A stretch of DNA of 64,000 bases from NCBI RefSeq assembly GCF_017873855.1, contig NZ_JAGGKR010000002.1, forward strand, positions 124,001-188,000. Reading direction: 5' to 3'. Positions within the stretch are counted from its first letter, which is position 1; each line of letters starts with the position of its first letter. This document shows positions 41,248 to 44,604 of the stretch, in pieces. Made by a program: the position numbers and the translations under genes. The DNA is from Methanolinea mesophila (GTDB lineage Archaea > Halobacteriota > Methanomicrobia > Methanomicrobiales > Methanospirillaceae). Under the pieces are notes generated by a model. That model was not told the origin of the DNA and ran no database searches. It worked only from the letters and a program-made list of their open reading frames with translations.

Positions 41248-41793
41248 TCACTCGGTGGCCGGGGCCTTCTCCGCCGGTACCTCGGTCACCGTCTTTTCGA
41301 CGACGGTGATATAGGTGGGGGAGGGGAGCTTGTAGCCCCCGTGGCGGAGTGCGTCCTTGGCCTTTTCAAGGTACTGGGGAGTGGTGAAGCAGGTGAAGAT
41401 CCGCTGGTCAGGTGCGACCCGTGCGGCGGTCCCGACGGCCTTGCCGAACGCGAGCCTCATTCCTTCCGAGACACGGTCCGCACCAGCCCCGGTTGCCTGC
41501 TTGTTCTCCCGCAGCACGTGGTGGGGGAAGGTGCGAAGCTTCAGATGGAAGTTCATCCTTCCCACGTCCTTGATCAGTTTCCTGTTGATGCTGATACGGG
41601 CGGCCTCGAGGGCGGTGTGCCGGATCTGGCATCCCTCGGTGACCACCAGGTTGATCTCAAGGGGGAACTCTCCGGAGAGATTCCCCATCTCGAACTGCAC
41701 AATCTTGCTGCCTGGCACCCCGCCCATATATTCCCTGCGGGTATATGCCTTTTTGGCCAGGCTCCTGTACATTTTTGCCGGTTTTCGAACCAT
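41248..41793 (-). CDS. rpl10e: Large ribosomal subunit protein uL16 (L10e)
   Basis: The 181-residue protein matches archaeal L10e: [20 protein letters not shown] at the start, then [20 protein letters not shown] (about 51-70) and [22 protein letters not shown]. It sits near the tRNA-binding face of the large subunit. The C-terminal tail ([17 protein letters not shown]) is longer and more acidic-polar than the usual end and may be flexible. The neighbouring ABC genes on the same strand are unrelated, and the 72-base gap separates them. Confidence 0.95.
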
Positions 41794-41865: not shown

Positions 41866-42624
41866 TCACCGGTCTCTTCCCGGTTCGTCCATCAGATCCA
41901 GCACATGGCGCCGTATCCGGGCGAACTCCGTACTCGTCCGGTCCCGGGGACGGGGGATAGGGATCTCCATGACCTCGCGGACGGTCCCCGGCCTCCGGGT
42001 GAGCACCACGATCCGGTCGGACATGTACACCGCCTCGTCCACGCTGTGGGTCACGAAGATAATGGTCTTTTTGGTCTTCTCCCAGATCTCCAGGAGCTCC
42101 TTCTGCATCTTGTTCCGGGTCTGGGCGTCCAGGGCCCCGAAAGGCTCGTCCATGAGGAGCACCTCGGGTTCGACCGCGAGGGCCCGTGCGACCGCCACCC
42201 GCTGGCGCATCCCCCCTGAGAGCTCGTAGGGGTAACTCCGCGCAAAGCCGGAAAGCCCCACCATCTCCAGGTACGTGTGTGCGAGCGCGCTCCTCTTCTC
42301 CTTTTCAACCCCCCGGATCTCAAGCCCGAAGGTGACGTTGTCCAGCACGGTCCTCCAGGGGTACAGCGAGTATTCCTGGAAGATCATGGCAGTCCTCGGG
42401 TCGGGCCCGGTAATGGGCTGCCCGTCGAGGAGGGCGGTGCCCGAGGTCGCCTGGTCAAGGCCGCCGATGATGCGGAGCAGGGTGGTCTTCCCGCACCCGC
42501 TCGGGCCGAGCAGGCAGACGAACTCCTTGTCGACGATCTCCAGGTTGATATCCGAAAGCGCCTCGACCGTCTCGCCGGAGGCTGAGACAAATGTCCTTCC
42601 CAGGTGTTCTATCGAGAGCCTCAT
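41866..42624 (-). CDS. ABC transporter ATP-binding protein, nitrate/sulfonate/taurine-type importer
   Basis: The 252-residue ATPase has Walker A GPSGCGKTT (about 40-48), the signature SGGMRQRVAVARAL and Walker B VLLMDEPFGALDA, followed by THSVDEAVYMSDRI. The arrangement and lengths fit the SsuB/TauB/NrtD class. I chose ATG 42624, giving MRLSIEHLGRTF; longer upstream codons overlap the permease. The gene is the last of SBP-permease-ATPase on the minus strand. Substrate is not read from the ATPase. Confidence 0.93.
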   Translation of the reverse strand: MRLSIEHLGRTFVSASGETVEALSDINLEIVDKEFVCLLGPSGCGKTTLLRIIGGLDQATSGTALLDGQPITGPDPRTAMIFQEYSLYPWRTVLDNVTFGLEIRGVEKEKRSALAHTYLEMVGLSGFARSYPYELSGGMRQRVAVARALAVEPEVLLMDEPFGALDAQTRNKMQKELLEIWEKTKKTIIFVTHSVDEAVYMSDRIVVLTRRPGTVREVMEIPIPRPRDRTSTEFARIRRHVLDLMDEPGRDR

Positions 42625-42637
42625 CGCGGTGTCCTCC

Positions 42638-43399
42638 TCATCGCTCCTGCCCCTGCCAGGCAAAGCGTTTCTTCTCGACATTTCTGAGCAGTGTGTCCAC
42701 GAACAACCCGATCAGGCCGATCACCACCATCCCGGCGACGGTAACCTGAAGCTGCCCGAAGTTATACGAGTTGATGATGAGGTAGCCCAGGCCCGACGAG
42801 GTCCCGGGGAGCATCTCTGCAGCGACGACCGACATCCACGCGATCCCGAACCCTACCCGGAGCCCGGTCCAGATGGTGGGCATGGATGCCGGGAGGATGA
42901 CCTTGCCGAGCGTCTGCAGCTCGGTGGCCCCGAACATGGTGGATGCCTCAATCCAGGTACGGTTCACCCGCTTCACCCCGTCGATGGTGTTGAGCAGGAT
43001 GGGGAAAAGGGCCCCGATGAAGATGATGAACACGATCGAGGCGAACCCGATCTTAAACCAGGCGAGGGCGAGCGGGATCCACGCGATCGGCGGGATCGGG
43101 CGGAGGAGCTGAATGAGCGGGTCCACCACCTGGTCGAGCATGGAAAACCTGCCCATCATCACCCCTATCGGGATCGCCACGATGGCGCCAAGGAGAAAGC
43201 CTGTTGTTACGCGCCCAAGGCTTATCAGGGCGTTCTCCGCCAGGCTCCCGCTGCCCTGGATATCGACGAAGGGATGGACAAGGACCTCGAGGATAGACCC
43301 CACCCGGGGGAGAATAAACGCGTTATTTATCAGGATCGCCAGGATTTCCCAGACTACTACGAAAATAATGGGAGAAATTAGTTTTATATAGAATCTCAT
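42638..43399 (-). CDS. ABC transporter permease, nitrate/sulfonate/taurine type
   Basis: The 253-residue protein has about six membrane helices and the EAA coupling loop WIEASTMFGATELQTLGKVI (about 145-164) of binding-protein-dependent importers. Other blocks are PIPPIAWIPLALAWFKIG. Together with the ATPase and the binding protein it would import an anion or organosulfonate-like compound. Its start overlaps the end of the binding-protein gene by ATGA (43396-43399). Confidence 0.93.
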   Translation of the reverse strand: MRFYIKLISPIIFVVVWEILAILINNAFILPRVGSILEVLVHPFVDIQGSGSLAENALISLGRVTTGFLLGAIVAIPIGVMMGRFSMLDQVVDPLIQLLRPIPPIAWIPLALAWFKIGFASIVFIIFIGALFPILLNTIDGVKRVNRTWIEASTMFGATELQTLGKVILPASMPTIWTGLRVGFGIAWMSVVAAEMLPGTSSGLGYLIINSYNFGQLQVTVAGMVVIGLIGLFVDTLLRNVEKKRFAWQGQER

Positions 43400-44604
43400 T
43401 TAGCCTCTATCACCGTGACACCGCTCTGCTCCAGTGCGTATTTCAACTGCACGTCCTGGATCGAGCCCTTGGGTGCCACCGCGATCTTGACCGGGTTGGT
43501 CGCACTGGACTTCTCTTTGATCCAGGCGATGAAACTCTCCCAGCCGGTCACCGGTGCGTCCGAGGTGACGACCAGGCCCGAACCTTCTGTATGTACTGGG
43601 AAGAGGATCTTTATAGGCGTTCCTTTGTCAATGGACGATATGGTGGGCGGGGTTCCGGCAATGGCGAAGTCGATGGAGTTGGACGCCATGAGGGTCATCA
43701 GCTGTGCTCCGCCGTCTCCCTGGACGAGCTGCACATCGGCCACTTTCTTCCCTTCGACGAGGAGTTCCGCATTCTGCACCCTGCCGGTGGAATCGCCGAC
43801 CGGTTTGAGCGCAACACCGTAGGTATCGTTGAAATACTGCCACTCTTTCACGGCGACGAAGAGCGGGGCGTCGTGGTCGGAGAGGAGGTACCCGATAGAG
43901 ATTTTCTGGGACGGGCCTTCGGGAACGGGAATCGTCCCGGCCGCGAGCATCCCCTGGGCCTCTTCCAGCGGCCTGAAGTCGTAGAGCAGCGCCGTGGTCT
44001 CATCGGGGGTGGTGTTCGAGAGGGTCCCGGTGATGTAGCCGATGTTCTTCAGGGCGTCGATGAACAGGATGTTTGACTCCAGCCACTGGGGCGAGGGGTC
44101 GTTGGTGAACCGGATGGTGGGGATGGACGCCTTCTCCACGTCGACCGAACTTACGGTGACGTTCCCGAAGGTGAGGTTCGCCCCGCCGAAGATCCAGTCC
44201 GCGGAGATCTCTGCGGCGCGATCGGGATTGTCCCTGGTATAGTTGGTCGCAGCGATCAGTGCCGCGGAGAGCGCGTCGGTCAGCTCGGGGTTACCCTGCA
44301 CTACCGCATCCCTGCCGACAAGGCTGTCGCAGGAGTGGTCCGCCCAGATCTCCGGCGGCGGCAGGTCCTGGGAGTATGAGACGACCTTTGCGAGACCGGT
44401 GACCTCGCCGACCGCGACGAACGGCTGCCAGGACATGTACCCGTCGATCTGGTCCGTCGCGAGCAGCTGGGGCATCTGCCCCGGGTTGGTGTAGAGGATC
44501 ATTACCGTTGCATTCGAGCCGGTCGCAGGTGCCTGTGTGCACCCGGCGGCGAGCATCGCTGCAATCACGATTCCGACAATAGCGAGAAGTATCGCCTTCT
44601 TCAT
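43396..44604 (-). CDS. ABC transporter substrate-binding lipoprotein, apparently circularly permuted
   Basis: The 402-residue protein starts with a lipoprotein signal (lipobox LAAGC, Cys22). Residues 33-230 hold what is normally the second half of NitT/TauT binding proteins (QLLATDQIDGYMSWQPF; later NPDRAAEISADWIF). Residues 234-402 hold what is normally the first half (KISIGYLLSDHDAPLFVAVK, then GTPPTISSI, and ending IAVAPKGSIQDVQLKYALEQ plus nine residues). The frame is intact and the order is reversed, which looks like a circular permutation. Ligand unknown. The gene has its own TATA box and a divergent regulator gene. Confidence 0.85.
   Translation of the reverse strand: MKKAILLAIVGIVIAAMLAAGCTQAPATGSNATVMILYTNPGQMPQLLATDQIDGYMSWQPFVAVGEVTGLAKVVSYSQDLPPPEIWADHSCDSLVGRDAVVQGNPELTDALSAALIAATNYTRDNPDRAAEISADWIFGGANLTFGNVTVSSVDVEKASIPTIRFTNDPSPQWLESNILFIDALKNIGYITGTLSNTTPDETTALLYDFRPLEEAQGMLAAGTIPVPEGPSQKISIGYLLSDHDAPLFVAVKEWQYFNDTYGVALKPVGDSTGRVQNAELLVEGKKVADVQLVQGDGGAQLMTLMASNSIDFAIAGTPPTISSIDKGTPIKILFPVHTEGSGLVVTSDAPVTGWESFIAWIKEKSSATNPVKIAVAPKGSIQDVQLKYALEQSGVTVIEAK

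Follow-up and report, generated by a model that had tools for sequence, protein, structure and literature searches.

Two groups of described systems frame the protein reported here, namely the ABC importers of the TauA/SsuA type and a single naturally permuted binding protein. In E. coli TauA, domain I comprises residues 23–104 and 202–319 and domain II comprises residues 105–201, with the hinges at residues 103–106 and 200–202 (PMC6906117). Its sulfonate is held by Gly61, Gly79 and Thr132. MglB-2 (Tp0684) of Treponema pallidum is a circularly permuted glucose-binding protein, termed 'type Ic' (PMC4990184). Additionally, a coenzyme M-specific ssuA/ssuC transporter of Methanosarcina acetivorans is mentioned in PMC12068725, so that an importer of this kind is plausible in methanogens.

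The window analysed here is a stretch of 64,000 nucleotides from Methanolinea mesophila. A sequence-only reading of it had proposed that the substrate-binding protein encoded at 43396–44604 is circularly permuted relative to TauA, SsuA and other NMT1-type proteins. This open reading frame lies at exactly these coordinates on the minus strand and encodes 402 amino acids with the lipobox LAAGC, in which G21 and C22 are conserved in the alignment of permuted homologues, and all the peptides quoted in that reading are present in the order given there. The break and the hinges were mapped by aligning E. coli TauA to the family in restored order. The operon and the parts of the binding protein are as follows.

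41866–42681, minus strand: ABC ATPase of the TauB/SsuB type.
42638–43399, minus strand: ABC permease of the TauC/SsuC type, whose start codon overlaps the stop codon of the binding-protein gene (ATGA).
43396–44604, minus strand: NMT1/TauA-type substrate-binding lipoprotein, circularly permuted, 402 amino acids.
44539–44604, minus strand: signal peptide and lipobox LAAGC (residues 1–22, from the sequence), now ahead of the middle of lobe II.
44338–44508, minus strand: residues 33–89, predicted second part of lobe II (TauA about 150–201), canonically in mid-protein (TauA alignment, domain limits from PMC6906117).
43579–44337, minus strand: residues 90–342, predicted lobe I as a single continuous segment, with the canonical C-terminal part followed by the canonical N-terminal part (TauA alignment; order from the PF13379 and half-profile matches).
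43909–43947, minus strand: residues about 220–232, putative new linker from the canonical C-terminus to the canonical N-terminus (from the alignment ends).
43735–43800, minus strand: residues about 269–290, an insertion present in permuted proteins and not in canonical relatives (alignment).
43399–43578, minus strand: residues 343–402, predicted first beta-alpha part of lobe II (TauA about 105–148), now the C-terminus (TauA alignment).

In its native order the protein matches PF13379 (NMT1_2) in two separate pieces that are out of order. Specifically, the best native stretch aligns residues 231–397 to profile positions 4–149, whereas the second half of the profile (150–247) matches the first half of the protein (G000:C2:168206-168532), and a collinear full-length match is absent. 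The head-to-tail doubled copy, which the sequence-only reading had suggested aligning to an NMT1-type profile, produces one continuous match across the junction, in which residues 231–504 cover positions 4–247 of the 252 in PF13379 (E 2.7e-54). The protein lies above the Pfam curated cut-offs for PF13379 (90.5 against 24.7 bits) and PF09084 (NMT1; 28 against 20.5 bits), and it matches NMT1-type families only, not the type I (cluster B) sugar-binding family. Because its halves come in the reverse of the collinear order of N half then C half, we file it as a permuted variant and not as an ordinary NMT1_2, or class II, member. The N-terminal part of the protein is matched by the second half of each of the NCBIfam models SsuA_fam, SaoX and taurine_ABC_bnd. 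Its scores for TIGR01729 (TauA equivalog; 26.7 bits) and TIGR01728 (SsuA subfamily; 63.7 bits) stay below the curated cut-offs of 304.25 and 163.5 bits, and the permutation itself lowers them.

Against solved structures, the native-order profile finds two entries only, in scattered and out-of-order pieces, whereas the restored-order profile aligns in a single stretch to TauA, SsuA, NrtA and CmpC and also matches THI5 structures; since the restored profile includes canonical relatives, it is the doubled-copy match to PF13379 that constitutes the independent test of the window protein. The circular permutation of this open reading frame is real, and it explains why a match to an annotation profile covers just one half of the protein.

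The odd order itself, and nothing further, would speak for a rearrangement of an ordinary gene during assembly or sequencing. Full-length collinear homologues with 39–55% identity, however, lie on five independent metagenome-assembled contigs from other Methanomicrobiales. Matches were found in 102 of 199 sampled Methanomicrobiales genomes, covering 24 of 38 genera, and most are full length and free of stop codons; 99 of these genomes encode a member of the main or of the divergent permuted group, several of them being single-contig assemblies, and three more carry fragments only. On the fetched loci, a half-profile test returned the swapped order for 60 of 60 distinct permuted proteins and the usual order for 19 of 19 canonical ones, which bears out the expectation that homologues in other methanogens would share the arrangement. 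The half-profile matches in permuted proteins end close to the chain termini, which indicates a common breakpoint. The window genome additionally encodes a diverged second permuted copy (35% identical, G000:C1:1540059-1541207), also with a permease and an ATPase. With one breakpoint shared by the five contigs, the 99 genomes and the 60 sequences, an assembly or sequencing error, which the sequence-only reading had named as grounds for refutation, is excluded for practical purposes, and the permuted protein is a genuine and conserved variant within a known family. Elsewhere, in genome G172 (L094, 2966–4224, minus strand), a permuted paralogue is split between its halves into two overlapping reading frames (215 and 243 amino acids), an apparent frameshift or assembly error.

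Across a phylum-wide sample of 393 genomes, 46 Methanomicrobiales and one further genome, G336, give strong native-order matches. No relative turned up in viral contigs, and plasmids contained half matches only. Relatives with the canonical order also exist in other parts of the phylum and among other Methanomicrobiales, some of the 19 canonical proteins coming from other families of Methanomicrobiales. Both PF13379 members detected in the window genome are permuted, and at E 0.001 this genome yielded no canonical PF13379 protein. At a threshold of E 1e-15 across the phylum, the canonical form alone occurs in 15 Methanomicrobiales genomes, all in two families, and in no Methanomicrobiales genome among the matches listed do canonical and permuted relatives occur together. 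This apparent mutual exclusivity fits replacement of one form by the other, but it is clade-bound and depends on the threshold.

The sequence-only reading had placed the breakpoint in the hinge between the lobes, and this was wrong. The chain ends of the window protein map to TauA residues about 148–150, in the middle of domain II (105–201), and the TauA hinges correspond to residues 341–344 and 88–90 of the window protein, so the break falls within domain II and not in a hinge. From this alignment we infer that lobe I is continuous (residues 90–342), that lobe II is assembled from residues 33–89 and 343–402, and that the lipid anchor sits on lobe II, as opposed to lobe I in canonical proteins. 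An AlphaFold model built from six sequences reached a pLDDT of 45, too low for use at the level of the fold.

In a quick maximum-likelihood tree, which draws its canonical relatives from a single phylum and contains long branches, all 60 permuted proteins fall on one side of a branch with an SH-aLRT of 99. This branch, the common breakpoint and the common insertion together favour a single origin of the permutation. We propose that the old chain ends, located in lobe I, would have been joined by a short linker, and that the new ends would open a loop inside lobe II, with both termini building lobe II and lobe I running continuously. The chain may then fold into the usual two lobes; the hinge would still be crossed twice, allowing ligand closure as in TauA, and the membrane anchor would have moved from lobe I to lobe II. 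The same product might instead have arisen by fusion of two complementary half-proteins, a lobe II/C-terminal piece and an N-terminal piece, from different binding proteins. Sequence alone cannot separate one parent from two, a caution similar to that raised for MglB-2 (PMC4990184), and tandem permuted copies in some genomes (L098) indicate that tandem binding-protein genes do occur. Nevertheless, the two halves form one continuous match whose ends meet within a few residues, with hardly any overlap or gap, and in canonical relatives both halves align as one stretch; we therefore regard a two-parent fusion as unlikely, and its product would be a circular permutant either way. Two tandem permuted binding-protein genes each are found on G122:C61 (L098) and G138:C65, and tandem duplication is the kind of event able to yield a permutation.

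At nearly all permuted loci the permease lies directly downstream, often with overlapping start and stop codons, and the ATPase follows where the fetched DNA reaches. The window protein likewise belongs to an operon with its cognate permease and ATPase, and these neighbours make a role as the binding component of an ABC importer most likely. The expectation that the permuted protein is functional is very likely correct. It is conserved at full length across many genera. A few copies have no detected adjacent permease (for example, L103), as would suit a permuted protein with a non-transport role, for instance that of a ligand-binding lipoprotein serving a sensor or chemoreceptor, but the regular, often overlapping permease and then ATPase genes make such a role very improbable. 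Overall, we hold with considerable confidence that the gene encodes the binding lipoprotein of a TauABC/SsuABC-type (class II, NMT1_2) importer that was permuted, probably once, in an ancestor within Methanomicrobiales. The same ribosomal protein gene (uL16/L10e family) follows the importer operon in the window (41251–41793) and in L001 (4295–4801), and argH and an asparaginase/gatD-like gene lie near the operon in the window, L002, L004 and L005.

As for the ligand, SsuA_fam is the best NCBIfam match of the window protein, and in the alignment the TauA residues Gly61, Gly79 and Thr132 correspond to Gly299, Gly317 and Ser381. Additionally, in L095 (G336:C58, 216–6420, minus strand throughout), which contains the sole permuted copy found outside Methanomicrobiales in the phylum sample, the operon of binding protein, permease and ATPase adjoins comA for phosphosulfolactate synthase (ComA), a comB-like gene whose phosphatase product scores below its curated cut-off, and comDE, a fused gene for sulfopyruvate decarboxylase (ComDE). 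This linkage comes from a single contig of an incomplete metagenome-assembled genome. In the window, the neighbours of the operon are the ribosomal protein gene and argH, and a sulfonate gene is absent. A sulfonate, perhaps coenzyme M or a related compound, is the favoured ligand, at roughly even chances. Alternatives that concern the ligand alone, namely nitrate, bicarbonate, a thiamine pyrimidine precursor or riboflavin, are credible at somewhat short of even chances: NMT1-type proteins bind several such classes, and the restored profile matches NrtA, CmpC and THI5 structures. Rfam elements were absent from the window and from L001–L005, where neither a riboswitch nor another clue to the ligand appeared, whereas the SsuA_fam affinity, the Gly, Gly and Ser at the TauA positions and the com genes beside the L095 copy speak for a sulfonate. 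Among the 199 genomes, 107 score above the cut-off of the sulfopyruvate decarboxylase model, and none does so for ComA. These patterns are mixed and run along clades, so we did not adopt the view that the importer makes up for a loss of coenzyme M synthesis. The fuller scenario, in which a clade-wide class II permutant of single origin, its anchor moved to lobe II, replaced the canonical sulfonate or coenzyme M protein in several Methanomicrobiales families, we put forward only tentatively.

The presence of the rearranged form in about half of the sampled genomes of the order speaks for a real, old and apparently working design, and a conserved TauA/SsuA-type permutant, with canonical relatives in the same order, suggests that importers can accommodate a tether on the opposite lobe. 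A natural permutant can here be compared directly with a canonical protein in binding, closing and docking, and it offers a natural guide for permuted biosensor scaffolds.

Compared with TauA and SsuA, the window protein shares the sequence family, export and operon partners of the TauC/SsuC and TauB/SsuB types, and it has Gly, Gly and Ser where TauA holds its sulfonate. It differs from them in that its halves are swapped, with the break in lobe II, a predicted continuous lobe I and an insertion of about 22 residues, and in that its lipid anchor probably sits on lobe II. The likeness to the methanogen ssuA/ssuC system of M. acetivorans (PMC12068725) lies in a sulfonate-type importer, its link to the permuted family being a functional guess. 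The open-access literature searched described engineered permutants as well as MglB-2, but a natural circular permutant of class II was not among them, so that natural permutation in substrate-binding proteins has one described precedent there, in a different fold type; the earlier description of the architecture as rare thus stands for the class as documented, but not for the many Methanomicrobiales in which it is the usual form. With MglB-2 the window protein shares the natural circular permutation of a binding lipoprotein that is conserved in its clade. MglB-2, however, has the type I (cluster B) fold and a sugar ligand, with the break in its N lobe and a fourth crossover gained (PMC4990184), whereas the window protein belongs to class II, with two predicted crossings and the break in lobe II.
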